Below are positions 3,364 through 17,602 of a DNA stretch of 64,000 nt, piece after piece (within the stretch, counting starts at the first letter, position 1; every line of letters starts with the position of its first letter). Where the stretch lies: contig UGGN01000001.1 of assembly GCA_900450455.1 (NCBI GenBank), forward strand, positions 682,001 through 746,000, in the 5' to 3' direction. Made by a program: the position numbers and the translations under genes. Below the pieces are notes generated by a model that saw nothing but the letters and a program-made list of their open reading frames with translations, searched no databases and had not been told where the DNA came from. The DNA is from [Eubacterium] infirmum (GTDB lineage: Bacteria > Bacillota > Clostridia > Peptostreptococcales > Anaerovoracaceae).

Positions 3364-5535
3364 ATGAGTAAAAAGATGAAAAAAGATTTTGCCGAAAGAC
3401 AAAAAATAAAGGAGGAAGCAAGACTTTTAGGGAAAGAAAGTGTCGGTATTGATGAAAGCAGCAAGCTAAAACATGGTGATGATTACAGAGGAAAGATTAT
3501 CCATGACAAAGACAGGTTTCAACATAAGATACACGAAAAGATAAGCAAAAGAAATTCTGAGAATGAGCTTACTCAGGGAAGTTCCAAGAAAAATGCAAGG
3601 CATAGAAAATCTGTTAAGATAAATAACAGTCAAGGAAATGACAACAAAGGAAATGCCGAAATAAAGTCAGACTATAATACCGATGTGAAAGACGGACGAA
3701 TCTACGATCCTTTAGGCAAAGACCTTGATAATGACGGTATCATCGACAGATATGACAATGACTTTAGGGACAGCGACTATTTTGAGTCAACTTATGATGT
3801 GGAAGATAATCTTCATATAAAAGAGGATATGACAGAAAAATTCTCAAAAATGCATAAGGCTCAAAAGGAAAAGTATAAGAAGAAAAACTATTCAGATAAG
3901 CTCTATACAAGAAGTAAGGAGAAGACTTCAAAAGAAGAAAATACTAAAGATAAGGCTGAAAGCAAAAATACCGGTAAAGAAACTGTCTATGACAAAGAAA
4001 AGAAGAACAGCCTTTCCAAAGAGCAAAAAAAGGCACTGAAAAATAAGGTAGCAAAGGTGTCTGCTCTATCAGGACTTGCAAAAGGAAGTGAAACGGTAAG
4101 GGATTATCTTTCCCATGGCAGTGATGAAAATCAGGGTGTGGAAACAGGAGAAAAGATTGCAGATGTAAACTCAAAATTACTTCATGGGATAAAAAATTAT
4201 GCCAATAAGAAAAAGGCTAAGAAAAACTATGATCTCAGCAAAAAAGATTACAAGATACGAAAGCGTAAATCAAAGCTGGAGTTTCGGGAAGCCAAAGAGG
4301 AATTAAAGAAAACGGATGAGTACAAGAAAGCTGATACCTTTAAGAGATTTCAAAAGCGTAAGCAAATGAAAGATACTATAAGAAAGCAGAATAAATCAAG
4401 GCTTAGGGACAGGATTAAGGAAGGAGTTATTAACACCTTAAAGAGTTCAAAGGAAATGATTGTACGAAAAGCAAAGGGACTTATGATGATTGTCATAGGT
4501 CTTATTATTTTACTGACTTTCTTTACCAACTTTGCAGGCACATCTATGACCGGAATGATAAACTCTACAAGCGGAGTATTAACCACAACCTATCTTTCCG
4601 ACCAAAATGTGCTAAGTGAAATCAATCAGCAGTTTTCGGGACTGGAGGAAGGATTACAGGATGAGATAGACTCCATAGAGGAAAATTATCCCGGCTATGA
4701 TGAATACATCATAGAAAAAGAGGGAGAAATCGGACACAACACCCATGAGCTTTTATCCTACATCACTTCAAGATGTGGAGAAATTAAGGATTCGAAGGAA
4801 GTTCAAAGCATCATCCATGACCTTTTTACAAAGATGTATGATTTATCTTATCGGGAAGAAATTGAAATCAGATACAGGACGGTTACGGAAACATATACCG
4901 ATGAAGATGGCAATGAGCATACCGAAAGTCATGAAGAAGCCTACGAGTATAAGAAGCTCATAGTAACGCTAAAAAAAAGAGAAATGGACAGTGTCATAAG
5001 AGAAATCTTTGCAGAGTATCCCGATAATGTTCTTCACTATGAAGCCTTGCTTGCGTCTAAAGGAAACATGGAAACTGTCTTTGGAAGCGGAAACGGAAAT
5101 TTATCGGAGATTGTAGACAATCCCGACTTTTCAAATCCTGGAATTGCCTTTGATGATGTAACGGTGAAGGCATTGTTTAACGAAGCGGAAAAGCATATCG
5201 GAAAGAGATATGTATTTGGGGCGAACGGGCCGAATAACTTCGACTGTTCGTCCTTTGTGTGTTGGAGCTTTACCCATTCGGGAGTAAAAAATATGCCAAG
5301 GACGACCGCTTGGGGAATTTACAAAACTTACTGCAATCCTGTATCTCCATCGGAAGCAAAGGCGGGAGATATAATCTTTTTCAAAAACACCTATAACAGT
5401 GGAAGTCCAATATCTCACGTCGGCATTTATGCAGGAAACGGAATGATGATACACGCAGGAGATCCGATTCGATTTGTCAGTATCAACACACCTTACTGGA
5501 GGGAGCATTTCTACGGCTTCGGCAGAGTAAAATAA
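3364..5535 (+). CDS. Membrane-anchored NlpC/P60 cell-wall hydrolase of the mating pore (CD1108-type)
   Basis: A 723-residue protein predicted to open the peptidoglycan for the mating channel. Residues 1-365 are very basic and low in complexity. One membrane segment lies at about 371-390 (IVIGLIILLTFFTNFAG). The C-terminal 135 residues are an NlpC/P60 domain with the catalytic cysteine in DCSSFVCWSF (near 626) and the histidine in SHVGIYAG (near 685). Residues 114-151 hold a striking aspartate-rich block, [14 protein letters not shown], which recurs almost unchanged near the end of the giant helicase protein at 8471-17602. Tn916 Orf14 has a related C-terminal domain. The role follows the family and is not shown here. 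Confidence 0.88.
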   Translation: MSKKMKKDFAERQKIKEEARLLGKESVGIDESSKLKHGDDYRGKIIHDKDRFQHKIHEKISKRNSENELTQGSSKKNARHRKSVKINNSQGNDNKGNAEIKSDYNTDVKDGRIYDPLGKDLDNDGIIDRYDNDFRDSDYFESTYDVEDNLHIKEDMTEKFSKMHKAQKEKYKKKNYSDKLYTRSKEKTSKEENTKDKAESKNTGKETVYDKEKKNSLSKEQKKALKNKVAKVSALSGLAKGSETVRDYLSHGSDENQGVETGEKIADVNSKLLHGIKNYANKKKAKKNYDLSKKDYKIRKRKSKLEFREAKEELKKTDEYKKADTFKRFQKRKQMKDTIRKQNKSRLRDRIKEGVINTLKSSKEMIVRKAKGLMMIVIGLIILLTFFTNFAGTSMTGMINSTSGVLTTTYLSDQNVLSEINQQFSGLEEGLQDEIDSIEENYPGYDEYIIEKEGEIGHNTHELLSYITSRCGEIKDSKEVQSIIHDLFTKMYDLSYREEIEIRYRTVTETYTDEDGNEHTESHEEAYEYKKLIVTLKKREMDSVIREIFAEYPDNVLHYEALLASKGNMETVFGSGNGNLSEIVDNPDFSNPGIAFDDVTVKALFNEAEKHIGKRYVFGANGPNNFDCSSFVCWSFTHSGVKNMPRTTAWGIYKTYCNPVSPSEAKAGDIIFFKNTYNSGSPISHVGIYAGNGMMIHAGDPIRFVSINTPYWREHFYGFGRVK

Positions 5536-6726: not shown

Positions 6727-8439
6727 ATGGAACTTGTGATTGCGGAGAAACCGAGCGTTGCCCTATCAATTTCCAAAGTGATTGGAGCAAAGAATAAAAA
6801 AGACGGATACTATGAGGGTAACGGATACAGAGTAAGCTGGTGTGTCGGGCATTTAATTCAAATGGCAAATCCCGATGCTTACGATGAAAAGTATGCAAAA
6901 TGGAAGATTGATAACTTACCGATTATTCCAAGCGAGTATAAGTACGAGGTAGCAAAGGCAACGAAAAAGCAGTTTAATACACTGAAAAAACTGATGAATG
7001 ATAAGGAGATTGATACAGTTATCAATGCTTGTGATGCAGGACGGGAGGGAGAAGCAATCTTCAGACTTGTATATCTTCAAGCAAACTGCAAAAAGAAGAT
7101 GAAAAGGCTTTGGATTTCATCAATGGAAGATTCTGCAATTAAAGACGGCTTTGATAATCTAAAAGACGGAAAAGACTATGGCAATCTTTTTGAGTCGGCA
7201 CAGGCAAGAGCAATTGCAGATTGGCTTGTCGGGATGAATATCAGCAGGCTTTATTCCTGCCTGTATAAGCAAAATTACAGTGTTGGGAGAGTTCAGACAC
7301 CTACCCTTGCTATGATAGTTAGTAGAGATGACGAGATAGCAAACTTTAAGAAAGAAAAATACTATACGGTAGAACTTGAACTTGACGGCTTTACTCTTTC
7401 GACAGAACGAATTGACAGCTTGGAAGTGGCAGAACAGCTTAAAAATTTACTTGAAAACAGAATAGAAATTACGGATGTGATTCAGAAAGAGAAAGTTACT
7501 AAGCCTGACTTGCCATTTGATTTGACAACACTTCAAAGAGAGTGCAACAAGTATTTCGGATACTCAGCTAAACAAACACTTGACTATGCTCAAAGTCTTT
7601 ATGAAAAAAAGCTCATTACCTATCCAAGAACGGACAGCAGATGTTTAACCGAAGATATGATTACAAGCACAGTTAACAATATCTTAGGAAAAAATGATTT
7701 TGATACAGGGCGTATCAAGGTAGTATTCAACTCTAAAAAAGTTACGGATCATCATGCGATTATCCCGACCGTATCATCGCTCAGTGAAGATATATCCAAA
7801 CTTCCTGAAAATGAAGCAAAAGTATATCGACTTATTTCTAATAAGTTTCATGCAAGTGTAGGTTATCCACTCACCCAAAATACTACTAAAATTGTAGCTG
7901 AATTTGACGGTTTTGAATTTACAAGTACCGGCAATGTAATTAAAGACGAGGGCTTTACAAAATACCTTAAAGAATACAAATCTAAGAAGAATGAAGAATC
8001 TGTTTTGCCGGAGGTAAATGTGGGAGATGTCCTTGAAATAAAGGAGAAAGTGATTAGAGAAAAGTACAGTCAACCTCCTAAACACTTTACAGAGGACACA
8101 CTCTTAAAGGCTATGGAGCTTGCAGGTAATGATGCACTGGAAAAAGGTGTTGAAGTGGAAAGAGAAGGACTTGGAACACCTGCAACAAGGGCGGGAATTA
8201 TAGAAAATCTGATTTACAAAGAATTTATTGAACGAGATAAGAAGAATCTGATTGCAACACCGAAAGGAAAAAGCCTGATTGAGATTGTTGCAGATAACTT
8301 TAAATCAGCAGAAATGACGGCACAGTGGGAAATGGAATTGTCTGAAATAGCACAGGGCAAATCTTCCAAAAAAGAATTTTTAGAAAAGATTGAGGAACAG
8401 ATAAAACATACGGTAGAGGAACACCAGAAGAATGAATAG
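6727..8439 (+). CDS. topB: Type IA DNA topoisomerase (topoisomerase III)
   Basis: A 570-residue single-strand-passing topoisomerase. It starts MELVIAEKPSVA (TOPRIM glutamate), has the acidic TOPRIM motif DAGREGEAI near residue 100, and the active-site tyrosine in LITYPRTDSR (Y299). SVGRVQTPTLAMIV is the usual type IA signature. It ends without a zinc-finger tail, so it is shorter than chromosomal TopB. ATG 6727 has AAGGAGG upstream. Tn1549-type elements carry topB between the pore genes and the large helicase; it probably relaxes or decatenates element DNA during transfer or circular replication. Confidence 0.95.
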   Translation: MELVIAEKPSVALSISKVIGAKNKKDGYYEGNGYRVSWCVGHLIQMANPDAYDEKYAKWKIDNLPIIPSEYKYEVAKATKKQFNTLKKLMNDKEIDTVINACDAGREGEAIFRLVYLQANCKKKMKRLWISSMEDSAIKDGFDNLKDGKDYGNLFESAQARAIADWLVGMNISRLYSCLYKQNYSVGRVQTPTLAMIVSRDDEIANFKKEKYYTVELELDGFTLSTERIDSLEVAEQLKNLLENRIEITDVIQKEKVTKPDLPFDLTTLQRECNKYFGYSAKQTLDYAQSLYEKKLITYPRTDSRCLTEDMITSTVNNILGKNDFDTGRIKVVFNSKKVTDHHAIIPTVSSLSEDISKLPENEAKVYRLISNKFHASVGYPLTQNTTKIVAEFDGFEFTSTGNVIKDEGFTKYLKEYKSKKNEESVLPEVNVGDVLEIKEKVIREKYSQPPKHFTEDTLLKAMELAGNDALEKGVEVEREGLGTPATRAGIIENLIYKEFIERDKKNLIATPKGKSLIEIVADNFKSAEMTAQWEMELSEIAQGKSSKKEFLEKIEEQIKHTVEEHQKNE

Positions 8440-8470: not shown

Positions 8471-11400
8471 ATGCGAATCAATGATTTTCATAACATTTTG
8501 GAGCTTGTAAAACAGGATATTCTGCATAGTGAAGCGGAGTATCTGAAGCTCTTAAAGGTTGTCGGGAACAATCAACGATATGACTTTAGAAGTCAACTAA
8601 GTATCTATGATAAAAATCCGGAAGCAACAGCCTGTGCCAAGTTTGACTATTGGCGTGAACGCTTTCATCGAACTGTTGTACGAGGACAGAAAGGGATTCC
8701 GATTTTAGAGGACTACGGAACATATAAAAAGGTTGACTATATCTTTGATGTAAGCCAGACCGTTTCAAGAAACAGAGATGTTAATGAGGTCAATCTTTGG
8801 CGATTTGATAAAGAAGCTCATCAAGATGTCTTAAAGGAAATGATAGCAAGTGAAGGCTATGAAGAAAGCGAAAGTAATCTTGAAAATATCTTTTCTCTAA
8901 GTAGAATTTATGGCGATGAAAAGATAGACAGCCTGATGAATGAGCTTAGAATAGCTGATGAGGACAGAATATCCTTTGTCAAATTTGTAAGGGATTCCAT
9001 CAGCTATGCGGTAGCTTCAAGATTTAAGTTAGATTATCCTATGGATAAGGAGCTATTAAAGAAAAATTTTGCAATGCTTGACAGCATATCTCTTATGAGC
9101 CTTGGTGAAACCGTATCGGATATTAGCGGAAATATCATAGATACAACCATTCAAAAGAGCAAAGAGCTTAAAATTCAAAAAGAAGTTTTAAGAAGCAGAG
9201 AAGCAGGATATAATAAGATTAGAGAAGAAATTGAGGAAGGAGAAAACAATGTACTTCGACGAGATGATCAGGAAAGAATTAGTGAAACCGAGCGAGTTTT
9301 CAGAAATGGAGAGTACGGACGAGATAGCAGTCAAAATCAGGGAGAACACCCTAAACAGCTTGGAGGAACAGACGGACTTCATCAAGGAATACCCGAATCC
9401 GACCTACGCAGTGATGAGGTTAGACTACCTTTCACAGAGCGAGGAGCAGAGCCGCTTCGAGATGTTAGTGGATCTATACAAGGAGAAGAAGCTGATAGAA
9501 CACCTGATGGATATTCAAAAACAGGCGATAGCATTTATGAGGACAGAGAAGCCGAAACTGATGAAGGCTTGGAAGATAGAGGGCGAGGAAAGTCCTCAGT
9601 ATGGGGCGATGATTTCAGCCTTGAAGGAAATGACCATCAAGGAGATCGTGGAAATCTAAAAGAAAATACTAAAGTAGAGATAAGAGAAGCTGACAAGGCT
9701 TCTTTTTCTTTGCCTGAAAATTCTTATGGACAGATAAGGCTTAGCATCCCTCTTGCTCAGAAAGATATAGACACTGTCCTTATTAACGGAGGAAATCATG
9801 ATGGTGGCAGACTTCCTGTTATTGCCGAGTTTTCTAAAGGAAAAAGCAATGAAGAATTGGGAGAATACCTTAAAAATACTTTTCAAGGGGGAAACGGCTA
9901 TATCATTGACGGAAGTGAAATCTCAGCTTGGTATTCGGATAAGGGACTTCACTTTTCTTCCGGAACATCAGCAAGAGAAGATGACACACAAGTTTTAAGT
10001 TGGGGTAATGCTGCAAACAGAATTGCTGAACTTCTTAACAGCGGAGAATTTGCCACAAATGTGGAACTACAGGAAGCCTTAGACTATGAAAGAGACAGAA
10101 TTTCAGAATCCCTATGGTATCTTATTCACGATTTGAGTGAGGAAGGAAAAGAACAAGGTTTTTTTGAATTTCTCGAAAAGGGAGGTGGCTTTCCGGATGA
10201 AATAAAACGATTATCCGAGGCACTGAAAAATCCTGAATACCTTGTGGATGTTATCAAAGAGTATGGACGATTTTTAGAAGCATATAGAGAAGATAGAGAT
10301 GTACTAAGGTTTCACTATCATAAGGTGGACAGCCTTTATCAGAAGTTACAGGAGCTTGAACTGTCAAGAAAAGAATACAGTACCAATCTGACTGAACTTC
10401 CGAAAGTAAAAGCCTTTATTACGGAAGATGAAGTTCTTGCCACACTTTCAATGGGAAGCGGAATCGATAGAGGAAAAGAGAGAATTACCGAGTTTTTCAA
10501 AGAGAACCATACTTTACAGGAAAAAGCCGACTTTTTAAAAGATGAATACGGAACAGGAGGAAGAAGCCATGCGGTATCAGGTTTGACAGGCAGTGGAGAA
10601 TGGCACGATGCCAAAGGAATAAAACTGGAAAAGAATGATTGTAATGATGTGTTTCTTACTTGGTCAAGCGTGGCAAAGCATATTGATGAGCTGCTTTCTA
10701 AAAATCTTTATGAAGAAAAGAAAATAGAAAGTAAGGCAGAGAGAGAAGAAGCAAAAGAAGCACAAAAATCACAATATTATTCTAAAGATGATCCTGAAAA
10801 CTTAATGACCGATGAAATGCTTGAAAGAGTTCCTGAGCTTTACGCACAGGAAGAAGTATCTTTAGCGGATAAGGAAGTTCATGCAACATATATCATTCCT
10901 TTCCGTTCTAACTGGACTTGGTATATGACGGAGTACGACAGAGAAAGCGGAGAAGCCTTTGGGCTTGTAGTCGGAATTGAACCTGAATGGGGATACTTCA
11001 ATCTTGAAGAATTAAAAGAACTAAATGCTGAGAGGCTTATCTTAGAAGATTTTCCAAAGACTTTTCGAGAGATTAAAGATACAGAGCTTGTAAAACAGAT
11101 GAGCGAGGAAGAAATAGACCGAGTATTTAACGGACAGCTTTCCTCAAAAGATAATCAAAAGGAACAGGACATCTTTTATCTTAGCGATGAAATGGGAATT
11201 TCCTTAGAAGAAGCAGAGAGTATTATCAACGATAGGAACAAATTATCAGGTGTTAATGCAGAGGATAAAGAAAAAGAAGCAGATGACATAAATGCCCTGC
11301 CTGATGAAAAAATTGCTATTAAGGTCGGTACAGAGTTTATTTTGGCAGATAAGTCTGATGTAGCTCATATCAATTTATCCGAAGCGAAAAATAGCGTGGC

Positions 11401-14400
11401 TCTTGGCGGTGTAAAGTACAAACTGTTTTATGGAGAAAGCTATGAAGATAGTAAAAAGGTTGATGAACTGATAGACAGCTACGGCTATACAGCGTATGAA
11501 CTAAAAGAACATTTAAGAATAGATACAGCCGAGTATAAAACTTATGAAAACTTTGAAGAAATGGAAGAAGCACTTGAGAAAAGTCCTGTTCAATCTACCC
11601 TATTTGAATACATTCGGCAAAAGGAAGAAGTAGAGCTGAATGAAAAAGAAGAAAGCCTTGCGGATAAATTTGCAGTGAAACAAGGAGATACCGTATATTT
11701 TGACCATGAAGCATATATTGCAAGAGGTATTGAAAAAAACAAGGTAAACGGAAAGCCGGAGGTATGGCTTTATCCGGCAAGAGATGGAAATAGACAAATT
11801 GCAATCGTACCGTTTATGGATAATGAGGAGCTATTAAGAAAGATAAGCCTTGAAAGACCAAGTTTTATTGTTGGTGATGAAGTTAAATACAAGGATAAGG
11901 ACTGTACCATCACACGCTTTGACAATATGGGAAATAACCTAAAGACCGTAACGGTTAAGGATAATACCGAATATCTTGGTGGTATGATAACCGGCTCCGA
12001 TGTGATTCCCTATCGTTTGGATAGCGACCTTGAGAGAATATTTGAAAATCTGACATACACGAAAGCTAAAGATACAATTCAAGACATTGATGAAAAGGCA
12101 GAAAAACCTAAAATAGAAGCTCATAACTTTAAGATTACCGAAGAAATTCTCCCGGCAAAATTAACGCCAAGTGAAAGGTTAAATAATAACTTGGAAGCAA
12201 TTTCCATGCTTAACCGAGTGGAAAGAGGAGAACGAGAGCTTGACAGCACCGCTCAGGAAACTTTGGCAAAATATGTCGGCTGGGGCGGACTATCCGAAGT
12301 CTTTGACGAGAGCAAGGAAGGTCAGTGGAAAGAAGCAAGAGCTTTTCTAAAGGAGAACTTATCGCAGGATGAATATGACTCTGCAAAAGAATCTACCTTA
12401 ACGAGCTTTTACACACCGAAAACAGTAATTGACAGTATCTACTCTACCCTGTCAGGAATGGGCTTTAAGAGTGGTAATATCTTAGAGCCGTCAATGGGCA
12501 TCGGAAACTTTATCGGCAATCTTCCTGATGAAATGAAAAAGTCCAAGTTTTATGGTGTGGAGCTTGACTCCGTAAGCGGTCGTATTGGAAAACTTCTATA
12601 TCCGGAAAGTGATATACAGATTAAAGGACTTGAAGAAACGAGCTTTTCCAATAACTTCTTTGATGTGGCTATCGGTAATGTCCCATTTGGAGAATACAAG
12701 GTCAATGACAGGGAGTATAACAAAAATAACTTCCTTATCCATGATTATTTCTTTGCGAAATCCATTGATAAAGTCAGAAACGGAGGTATCATCGCCTTTA
12801 TCACATCTTCAGGTACGATGGATAAAAAGGATGAAAGTGTCAGACGATACCTTGCAGCAAGAGCGGAGTTTTTAGGAGCAATCAGACTTCCGAACGATAC
12901 TTTTAAGGGTGTTGCTGGAACGGAAGTAACCTCGGATATTATCTTCCTAAAGAAAAGGGACAGTATCAGAGAGCGTGAGGAGGACTGGATACATCTTGCA
13001 GAAGATGAAAATGGGCTGACATATAACAAATACTTTGTAGAGAATCCTCAGATGGTGCTTGGCTCTATGGAAGAAGTATCCGGAAGATTTGGAAACACCC
13101 TTGCTTGTCTGCCAAGAGAAAATGCCGATTTAAAGGAGCTGCTTGCAAGGGCAAGTGAAGAAATATCCAAAGGAGCAGCCTATGAAGAAATAGAACTTTT
13201 AGATGATGAAATCACATCAATCCCTGCAACGGACGATGTCAAGAACTTCTCATATACCGTTATTGATGATGAAGTGTATTATAGAGAAAATTCCCTATTT
13301 GTAAAGAAAGAGATAACGGAGAAGAACAAGGAAAAAATCAAAGATTACCTTGAACTGAACGAAGCTCTAAAAGATGTCATTTACAAACAAAAGGAAGATT
13401 TTTCGGAGGATGAGGTAAAGAAAGCTCAAGAAAAGCTCAATGAAGTCTATGACAGTTTTTCAAAGAAACATGGCTTTGTAAATAACCTTTCCAATACCAG
13501 AGCCTTAAAAGAGGACAGTAACTTCCCTCTTGTTTCCTCCATTGAAATCCTTGATGAAGAAGAAAACTTCAAGGAAAAGGGGGATATATTCTCCAAGAGG
13601 ACAATCACAAAGGCAAAGACAATCGACCATGTAGATACTTCCCTTGAAGCACTGGTATTATCCGTATCCGAAAAAGGATATGTGGATTTTGAGTATATGG
13701 AAAGCCTGACAGGAAAAGATAGACCGACTCTAATAGAAGAATTAATGGGAGAGATTTATCTAAGTATCAGGGAAGAACAGAACTTTTACAGACCGCTATC
13801 CTTTAACCCCGAAGATGGAGATTTGCCTTTCGCCTGTGCAAATGGCAGCAATTCATATAAGTATGGCTATGTAACAAAAGATGAATATTTATCAGGAAAT
13901 ATCAGGGATAAAATCGCCATTGTTGATAGCTATCTTTCAAAGCTAAGACAGACCGAAAGAGAACTTCCTCATCTTGGATATGCGGAAGATGGCAAAGAAA
14001 AAGAGCTGATAAGCTATGAGATGAACCGATTGGAATACCAAAAGGCAGAACTTACCAAAGTATTACCGAAAGAGCTTGAAGCAAGTGAGATTAGTGTTCG
14101 TCTTGGTGCAACTTGGATACCGATAAAAGATATAGAAAAGTTTATCTTTGAAACGCTGAAAACACCGGGCTGGGCAAGATGGGATATTAAAGTCAAATTC
14201 TCAAACCTTACAAGCGAATGGAATATTGAAGGAAAGAGCAGAGATAAGGGTAATGATCTTGCAGAAATGACCTACGGAACATCAAGGGTAAACGGATATA
14301 AGCTGATTGAGGATGCCTTAAACCTTAAAGAAACAAAGGTCTTTGACCAGATTGAAAATCCGGACGGCTCAAAAAGTTCTGTTCTAAATAAAAAGGAAAC

Positions 14401-17400
14401 TCTCCTTGCAGGACAAAAACAGGAACTTCTAAAAGAAGAATTTAAGAACTGGATATTTAGCGATCAGGAAAGAAGAAACAGGCTTGTAAAACTGTATAAT
14501 GAGCGTTTTAACTCTATCAGGAATCGTGAATATGACGGAAGTAATCTCTCTTTTGAAGGAATGAATACGGAAATAGAGCTTAGACCTCACCAAAGAAATG
14601 CCATTGCACGAAGTTTGTATGGAGGAAATACCTTGCTTGCCCATGTGGTGGGAAGCGGAAAGACCTTTGAGATGGTCGCTTCCGCAATGGAAAGTAAAAG
14701 GCTTGGAATGTGTAGTAAATCGCTCTTTGTCGTACCGAATCACCTGACAGGTCAAATAGGCAGAGAGTTTATGCAGTTATATCCGTCGGCTAACATTATG
14801 GTGGCTGACAAGAAAGATTTTGAGCCGAAAAACAGAAAGAGGTTTATTGGAAAGATTGCTACCGGAGAATATGATGCGGTTGTAATCGGTCATACGCAAT
14901 TTGAAAAAATCCCAATGAGTAAGGAATATCAGGAGAAACATATTCAGGATCAGATTGATGAAATTTTGAACTATATTGAGGAATACAAGCACGACAGAAA
15001 CCAAAATTTTACGGTTAAGCAACTTGAAAAGACAAAGAAAAAACTGGAAGCAAGGCTTGAGAAACTAAACGATGATTTTAAGAAAGACGATGTCATTACT
15101 TTCGAGGAACTGGGTGTAGATAAGCTTTTTGTGGACGAAGCACATGGATTTAAGAATTTGTATCTTCATACAAAAATGCGTAATGTTGCAGGGATTGGGC
15201 AAAGTGAAGCCTTTAAGTCCTCTGATATGTTTATGAAATGTAGATATATGGACGAGATGACAAATGGGAAAGGAATAGTCTTTGCCACAGGAACGCCTGT
15301 AAGCAATTCTATGACAGAGCTTTACACCATGCAGCGTTATCTTCAGTATGAAAACCTAAAGAAGAATCACTTGGAGCATTTTGATGCTTGGGCAAGTACC
15401 TTCGGGGAAACTCAGTCCGCCTTTGAACTTGCTCCTGAAGGAACAGGATACAGGGTGAAAACAAGATTTTCAAAGTTTTATAACCTACCTGAATTGATGT
15501 CCATGTTTAAGGAAGTCGCTGACATTCAGACCGCAGATATGCTAAATCTTCCAACACCTGAAGCACACTATGAAGTAATTAAAACCTTGCCGAGCGAGGA
15601 ACAAAAAGAAATCCTAAAGGGATTATCTGAAAGAGCGGATAAGGTTAGAAATAGAGTGGTAGAACCTGATGAGGATAATATGTTAAATATTACTAATGAT
15701 GGTAAGAAACTTGCCCTTGACCAAAGACTGATCAATCCCCTACTTCCTGATAATCCTGACAGCAAGGTGAATGTTTGCGTGAAAAATGTCTTTAGTATTT
15801 GGGATAAGACCAAAGAAAATAAGTCTACACAGCTTCTATTTTCCGATATGTCCACGCCAAAAGGAGATGGAGAATTTAACATTTATGATGATATTAGGGA
15901 TAAACTTGTAGCTATGGGCATACCGAAAGAAGAAATAGCCTTTATTCATGAAGCTAATTCAGATAAGCAAAAGGACGAACTATTTGCAAAGGTGCGTAAG
16001 GGAGATGTGAGGATATTGCTCGGCTCTACTCAGAAGATGGGAGCCGGGACAAATGTGCAAAATAAGCTGATTGCACTTCATGATTTGGATGTACCTTGGC
16101 GTCCTGCGGATTTAGAGCAGCGTGCGGGTAGAATTGTTCGTCAGGGAAATGAAAATAAAGAGGTAAATATCTATCGCTATGTTACGGAGAATACCTTTGA
16201 TGCATATTTGTGGCAGACCATAGAAAATAAGCAGAAATTCATTTCACAGATTATGACTTCAAAAACTCCCGTTCGTGTTGCGGAAGATGTGGACGAAAGC
16301 TCCCTTAACTACGCTGAGATAAAGGCTCTTGCAACAGGGGATCCGAAAATCAAGGAAAAGATGGACTTGGACAATGAGGTTACAAAACTTAAAATGCTGG
16401 AAGCAAACTACAAGTCCAATCGTTACAGATTAGAGGATAAGGTCGCAAAAAATTATCCTGAAGAAATCACAAGAACGGAAAAACTCATTGAAGCTGTTAA
16501 GAATGATATAGCAAGTGTAGAACCTAAAGCGGTAGGTGAGGAAAAGTTTACTTCCATTACTATTTTAGGCGAGAAGATTACCGATAAGAAATTAGCAGGA
16601 GAAAAACTTCTTGAAGCCATTTCAAAAGTAAAAATCAACGAAAGTAAGATGATAGGAAAGTATAGAAATATGGATTTAGAGGTCAGTTATAACTTCTTTA
16701 CCAATGAGCATAACTTCAGCTTAAACGGTGCTGCAAAGCATTCCGGAGAGCTTGGCACAAGTGCAGACGGTAATATAACAAGACTGGATAATGCTCTTGA
16801 GAAAATGCCAGAGAAACTGAAAAGATTGGAAGAAAAGCTCATAAGCACCAAAGAACAGCTTGAAAATGCCAAAGAAGAACTTAAAAAGCCTTTTGAAAAG
16901 GCAGATGAATTGAAAACTAAAGTATTAAGACTTGCCGAACTGAATAAGCTGCTCAATATGGGAGAGGTAGAAGAAAAGAGAAATGACAATCCCCTTGTGG
17001 AAGATATAAAACGAGCGATTATTGACTTCTGTAACAGAGAGTATGAAGAAAACCACAGCTACGATGAGTTTGACAAGTTATACCCTGATTTAAAGCATAT
17101 CGGGATTGCCTATACCAATACTCCTGATGAAAGGCATGGGATTCAGTACGAACTGAATTTAGAAGCTAAAACATGGACACAGTATATTGATGATACTCCA
17201 ATCAAAACAGAGAGCTTCGACTATGAAAACAAGGGAGAGAACGAAGCTCTAAGGAATATGAAAAATGAAATTGAGTTATCCTCTTTTGAAGATTTAACTT
17301 ATATAGACTCAGAGGACTTAAAGGCAGCACTCGGATTGGAGATTGATGATGAAGGAAACTTCTATGATCCGCTTGCAAAAGACCTCGATAATGACGGTAT

Positions 17401-17602
17401 CATCGACAGATATGACAATGATTTCAGGGACAGTGATTACTTTGAATCAACCTATGATGTGGAAGATAATCTTCATACAAAAGAGGAAACTTCTCAAAGA
17501 ACGGAAGATAAACCGTCTATTTTAGGACAAATCAGAGCTTATCAAAGTGAAAGTAAGACGGAAGAAAAACAAACTACAAAAGAACAGGAATATGCAAGAT
17601 AA
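8471..17602 (+). CDS. Giant ArdC-like / N6-adenine methyltransferase / SNF2 helicase protein
   Basis: This 3,043-residue protein is typical of Tn1549-type ICEs. In order it has an ArdC-like N-terminal domain (about 1-110); a disordered Gly/Asp/Glu/Arg-rich linker (about 260-400) overlapping another gene; two similar domains of unknown role (about 435-525 and 640-755); a DUF2958 segment with [17 protein letters not shown] (about 805-870); a class I methyltransferase (EPSMGIGNF near 1337, NVPFG near 1403, a variant of NPPY); and an SNF2-type helicase ([11 protein letters not shown] near 2060, VDEAHGF near 2221, [11 protein letters not shown] near 2553). The tail has an aspartate-rich block (from 2965) and [16 protein letters not shown] precedes the ATG. 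It probably handles and protects transferred DNA; no activity is shown. Confidence 0.92.
9249..9659 (+). CDS. Out-of-frame gene embedded in the giant helicase gene (possibly TnpV-like)
   Basis: A 136-codon frame runs in a different phase inside the helicase gene. Its ATG at 9249 is preceded by GAGGAAGGAG ending six bases upstream, as good a ribosome site as any in the window. The product has normal globular composition and predicted helices, whereas the helicase frame over the same bases is a disordered Gly/Arg/Asp/Glu linker. The segment AVMRLDYL through [15 protein letters not shown] resembles the core of TnpV proteins (small transposon-encoded family), but this match is from memory and is weak. 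The opposite reading, that the frame is a chance by-product, is less likely given its length and start signal. Confidence 0.6.

Follow-up and report, generated by a model that had tools for sequence, protein, structure and literature searches.

A nested reading frame in the helicase gene of a conjugative element

The window, a 64,000-nucleotide (nt) stretch of the [Eubacterium] infirmum genome, carries an element in which we found the full set of PrgI, VirB4, NlpC/P60, CD1107-like, topoisomerase III, helicase and relaxase genes, a predicted gene content that places it among the Tn1549/CTn-type integrative conjugative elements. Related plasmid records have a gene order similar to that of this element. 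The features that concern us are as follows.

6727–8439, plus strand: topoisomerase III-type gene (Topoisom_bac, Toprim) immediately 5′ of the helicase gene, given for context
8471–17602, plus strand: giant helicase/methylase-like open reading frame of 3043 amino acids, the outer gene of the conjugative element (Pfam Helicase_C, ResIII, Eco57I, SNF2-related)
8471–9247, plus strand: helicase N-terminal domain preceding the overlap, conserved among related elements
9237–9242, plus strand: Shine–Dalgarno AAGGAG of the nested gene, placed by sequence; such sites are enriched before nested starts
9248–9658, plus strand: helicase residues 260–396, a predicted disordered acidic linker whose bases are common to the nested gene, placed by composition; helicase dN/dS is 1.19 there
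9249–9659, plus strand: predicted nested TnpV-family gene of 136 amino acids, in phase +1 relative to the helicase, supported by homology, conservation, selection and predicted fold

The nested open reading frame (ORF) runs from ATG 9249 to the TAA at 9657–9659 on the helicase strand. Its frame is offset from that of the helicase by one base, which places the third positions of nested codons on the first positions of helicase codons. The AAGGAG ends 6 nt before the ATG, which is the conserved start; the mechanically called ORF begins at TTG 9231. As the first-pass annotation had claimed, a 136-codon frame with a ribosome site thus lies wholly inside the helicase gene in another phase, that is, a complete ORF within another ORF, in a different frame and with its own start and ribosome site, as a nested gene is defined. 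The same annotation read the helicase frame as a disordered linker over this stretch, which was borne out: hydrophobicity along the helicase frame is at its minimum over the overlap, with the lowest 137-amino-acid windows beginning at residues 262–283. The RNA around the nested start folded no better than shuffled sequences, and consensus sites for an internal promoter of the nested gene were no commoner than in shuffles.

Two further observations concern the outer gene. A 32-residue motif occurs twice in the window's element, at 3721–3816 (NlpC/P60 hydrolase) and 17381–17476 (helicase C terminus); the copies are identical at 88 of 96 nt, co-occur in several related elements (L020, L038, L040, L043, L045 and L051) and look like a calcium-binding loop or like a tag that the two proteins share. 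Right after the linker in L184, L177 and L186, the sequences QLSLF, QMDLF and QLNLF resemble, by eye, what we take to be the bacterial sliding-clamp binding motif.

An open frame of this length might be nothing but a by-product of the codon make-up of the helicase linker, with no nested protein in existence. When the helicase was recoded synonymously, 1.5% of local trials kept a +1 frame open over an equal length, and the share was 1.5–10% depending on the homologue, which speaks for such a by-product; for the whole helicase gene, the observed open stretch of 155 codons exceeds the 95th percentile (133) of synonymous recodings. Frame length is therefore only moderately surprising, so that a single sequence is suggestive and the comparison of homologues is decisive.

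The nested protein as a divergent TnpV

Against the Pfam TnpV profile (PF14198), the window's protein scored 17.8 bits (E = 0.0033), below the gathering cut-off of 27 bits that its canonical nested relatives exceed. An iterated family profile reached it at E = 5e-22, and hhalign against canonical nested TnpV, with intermediates, gave a probability of 96.9%; the window's clade alone, set against standalone TnpV with no intermediates, gave a weak match (E = 4.5e-4, probability 33%). On these profile comparisons, the window's protein is a divergent TnpV, the relationship being weak when the protein is taken alone but firm through intermediates. We file it as a divergent homologue and not as a canonical TnpV because the N-terminal TYxxxGDYLIPNL part, present in canonical nested TnpV, is absent from its clade. 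The PF14198 search that had been proposed as a check therefore came out in two parts, with homology upheld by way of intermediates and the Pfam gathering cut-off not reached.

AlphaFold2 modelled the window's protein as all-helical (pLDDT 88.9, pTM 0.81), consistent with the early suggestion that the alternative frame encodes a folded, partly TnpV-like protein. The model of a canonical TnpV has the same C-terminal helix order plus an extra N-terminal hairpin. Neither sequence nor fold searches against solved structures, nor searches of viral structures, returned a credible match, so function could not be derived from structure, and no functional name for the nested protein was found in NCBIfam or PHROGs. 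Acidity-based DNA mimicry as a general role of TnpV is ruled out by the isoelectric points of nested TnpV proteins, which range from 4.6 to 10.2.

Conservation of position and phase

Scanning a single genome for each species gave 43 loci with the nested protein; within the family to which the window belongs, 7 of 350 genomes carry it. In all 51 close homologue loci the nested frame is open (protein identity 62–100%), as is the helicase frame through the overlap; two of these loci contain runs of N at the start. Indels within the overlap preserve the frame. The start and the Shine–Dalgarno are kept in nearly all of the loci, a GGAGG-type site being nearly always present. Plasmid relatives with 31–62% identity occur in S. 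agalactiae, Aerococcus tenax, Anaerococcus prevotii and S. suis, all in the helicase region; the helicase is truncated in the Aerococcus record, and the S. suis relative ends like a canonical TnpV. The expectation that annotation would miss the nested gene proved right for all four plasmid records checked. A plasmid search with one canonical TnpV query gave no matches; in phage records, the window's protein found no match and canonical TnpV matched two contigs, both unannotated.

Of the genomes sampled, PF14198 was detected in 108 of 293 from the class and in 22 of 299 from the phylum. We fetched TnpV loci and helicase loci and searched all their ORFs. Within this set, which was picked by TnpV or helicase matches and is not a random sample, 81 TnpV ORFs (78 distinct sequences) are nested in a helicase-type ORF, at a median of 267 codons into it and all 81 in phase +1. 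Later loci, other classes of the phylum included, added 24 nested TnpV ORFs, a few of them from identical or near-identical loci fetched again. At the level of sequence, nested TnpV is thus a conserved arrangement, with the same position and phase in many genera of Firmicutes. The initial description of a local nested gene was correct as to the gene but underestimated its extent, since canonical TnpV is nested in many elements.

A 6-nt Shine–Dalgarno match precedes 56 of the 81 nested starts, compared with 0.9% of the remaining ATGs that lie out of frame in these helicases, a statistic somewhat generous to the nested starts because the best start per gene was picked. These sites bear on whether TnpV might instead be made by ribosomal frameshifting, as a fusion to the helicase N-terminal domain, for which a phase of +1 in every case would be suitable. 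However, the strong ribosome sites 5′ of the ATG point to internal initiation, standalone genes start at the equivalent place, and a stop in the nested frame 6 nt 5′ of the ATG leaves hardly any room for a shift in most of the close homologues; we regard a frameshift fusion as highly improbable.

Distances among the TnpV sequences track those among the helicases (correlation 0.54; the highest value under permutation was 0.18), which fits long co-inheritance of the two sequences. Two long helicases of the family (L184 and L185) have no TnpV and short linkers. In the FastTree helicase tree they lie inside nested clades, a placement that suggests loss of TnpV, albeit on long branches. At four loci (L053, L129, L140 and L141), the TnpV frame is intact although the helicase is broken or shortened, and TnpV may accordingly be useful without a full helicase. 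At L092 (10657–11035, minus strand), a helicase with a nested TnpV is apparently split close to its end by inserted DNA that brings a standalone TnpV of its own, much like the published S. suis elements inserted in snf2 (PMC9815147).

Selection acts mainly on the nested frame

We aligned 44 helicases by codon and joined pairs by a minimum spanning tree. Over the overlap, 102 synonymous changes in the helicase were observed and 777 expected (0.13, z = −28), with the qualification that recombination among related elements and the presence of near-copies among the loci leave the comparisons less than fully independent. The overlap is the lowest 135-codon window of the helicase gene for synonymous change, and helicase amino-acid change in it is nearly doubled (0.133 versus 0.072). 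Rates by helicase codon position were.104/.045/.030 inside the overlap and.039/.026/.134 upstream; this flip makes the fast position the nested third, where change is three times as fast as at the nested second. Among the more distant, canonical genes, too, nested-frame rates by position are coding-like (.199/.148/.310).

When each change was classed by its effect in both frames, the overlap-aware dN/dS of the nested frame was 0.27 (CI 0.20–0.35), indicating purifying selection, and that of a control frame was 1.39. The helicase frame gave 1.19 (0.82–1.84) in the overlap, compared with 0.17 upstream and 0.26 downstream. The analysis thus supports the view that amino-acid-level selection in the overlap acts mainly on TnpV. 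The purifying selection sought by the first-pass annotation is apparent both in the nested dN/dS and in the 0.13 ratio of helicase synonymous change, and neither of the outcomes that it held to be incompatible with a nested gene was seen: the 51 homologues have no stops in the nested frame, and the constraint on synonymous sites is extreme.

A fall in synonymous change is expected wherever a functional element overlaps a gene, and the dip alone would fit a DNA or RNA element, such as an origin, a recombination site or a structured RNA, that encodes no protein. Yet the constraint is not position-independent: change follows the nested codon structure, indels stay in frame, and RNA structure in the start region does not go beyond that of shuffles, so that we give a purely nucleic-acid element almost no credence. 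The by-product of linker composition considered above has likewise a negligible probability, contradicted as it is by the nested dN/dS, the position-rate flip, the ribosome sites, the profile homology to standalone TnpV and the single phase of all 81 nested genes.

The helicase phase is kept open

None of the 81 nested genes contains a helicase-phase stop, whereas 33 standalone TnpV genes contain a mean of 7.7; the difference argues that both frames are maintained. Free recoding of the nested protein in six genes gave about 14 helicase stops, with every trial giving 4 or more. At their third bases, nested genes prefer G (0.425 versus 0.228) and avoid T (0.10 versus 0.25), biases that enrich the helicase linker in D, E and G. 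The absence of stops and the base bias thus indicate a helicase frame selected to be open and hydrophilic, with the order of its residues nearly free.

A helicase dN/dS of about 1 in the overlap, and the few helicases that are broken with TnpV intact, could also mean that the helicase is no longer one protein and that TnpV is the sole functional product of the stretch, the open helicase phase being passive. Against this are the lack of stops in the 81 nested genes where 7.7 would be expected from standalone genes, the bias of third bases against T, the strong constraint on the helicase on both flanks, and the failure to find frequent helicase-phase stops in intact elements. A passive helicase phase is therefore highly improbable.

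Two standalone genes deserve mention. The TnpV of L110 (3909–4299, minus strand) is the sole standalone copy with no helicase-phase stop and lies in a 162-codon ORF, possibly as a recent escape or a helicase remnant. At L094 (4557–5514), the standalone TnpV overlaps a short ORF at that ORF's end; the ORF matches Helicase_C weakly, and the overlap may be left over from a former link with a helicase.

Proposed expression, function and origin

Taken together, these data indicate, with a probability of about 0.93, that the stretch is genuinely dual-coding and that its inner gene belongs to the TnpV family. Ribosomes on the helicase message would read through the overlap and produce a flexible acidic tether from the N-terminal domain to the remaining domains, and separate initiation at the internal Shine–Dalgarno and ATG 9249 would produce the 136-amino-acid, all-helical TnpV-family protein. 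We infer both the production of this protein and a common transcript, internal initiation on the helicase message being the likeliest route.

The nested gene follows topoisomerase III in an element with a relaxase and transfer genes, and we therefore guess that TnpV, made together with the helicase and topoisomerase, would be an accessory factor in processing or transfer of the element's DNA. This is the least certain step, a working guess held at somewhat less than even odds. The TnpV of Tn4451 has been postulated to be an Xis-like excision protein by homology with lambda Xis (PMC3158075), and one of the four standalone loci with typed neighbours (L111) has a large serine recombinase; nested TnpV might accordingly serve excision of the element and not be a partner of the helicase. 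The predicted folds, helical bundles unlike any solved protein, do not favour excision, and the gene lies inside the helicase and not beside an integrase. We consider an excision role unlikely.

The term 'overprinted', applied in the first-pass annotation, holds for dual coding but is unproven as to direction. Standalone TnpV homologues exist as independent genes, and in the TnpV tree nested and standalone copies interleave with 10 label changes, some 'standalone' copies being TnpV inside broken helicases. One tentative scenario, which we hold to be possible but doubtful, is that TnpV arose as, or was captured as, an obligate nested helicase gene before the elements spread through Bacillota, its coding creating or reusing the disordered linker, and that standalone TnpV genes of smaller transposons are partly escaped copies. 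If so, TnpV and the helicase would be an ancient and widespread same-strand dual-coding bacterial pair whose products are made together for one DNA-transfer machine. Whatever its origin, the nested TnpV offers an explanation for the disordered linker of the helicase, and carriage of TnpV by conjugative elements is likely to be under-counted where helicase annotation masks the nested gene.

Comparison with known systems

Long same-strand nested genes in bacteria are, to our knowledge, few, usually young and often disputed. The TnpV–helicase pair offers a clean test case for the maintenance of dual coding because its position and phase are conserved, it has the expected selection signature and the family is a curated one. 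In the open-access literature on TnpV and conjugative elements, we found no description of the nested arrangement.

The window's copy resembles TnpV of the Tn4451 type (PF14198) in family profile, C-terminal helix order, small size and link to mobile elements, but TnpV has been described as an independent gene carried by small mobilisable elements (PMC3158075), whereas here it lies inside another gene. The outer gene resembles the SNF2/helicase gene of Tn1549/CTn-type elements, such as snf2 of the S. suis elements, which likewise follows topoisomerase III and has the same domains. That gene is an insertion target for elements bringing their own TnpV and was treated as single-coding, with no nested gene mentioned (PMC9815147), whereas the window's helicase appears to be dual-coding. 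Escherichia coli pop, antisense to ompA (PMC7103648), and laoB (PMC5810103) are, like nested TnpV, complete genes embedded in a coding gene and excluded by annotation; they differ in being antisense, narrowly distributed and accompanied by expression data, whereas nested TnpV is on the same strand, of a known family, widely conserved and predicted from sequence. Tombusvirus p19 and p22 (PMC11044054) are likewise two proteins whose frames differ but share a stretch of the same strand; that pair is viral, whereas nested TnpV is carried by a bacterial conjugative element and its outer frame encodes a predicted disordered linker.
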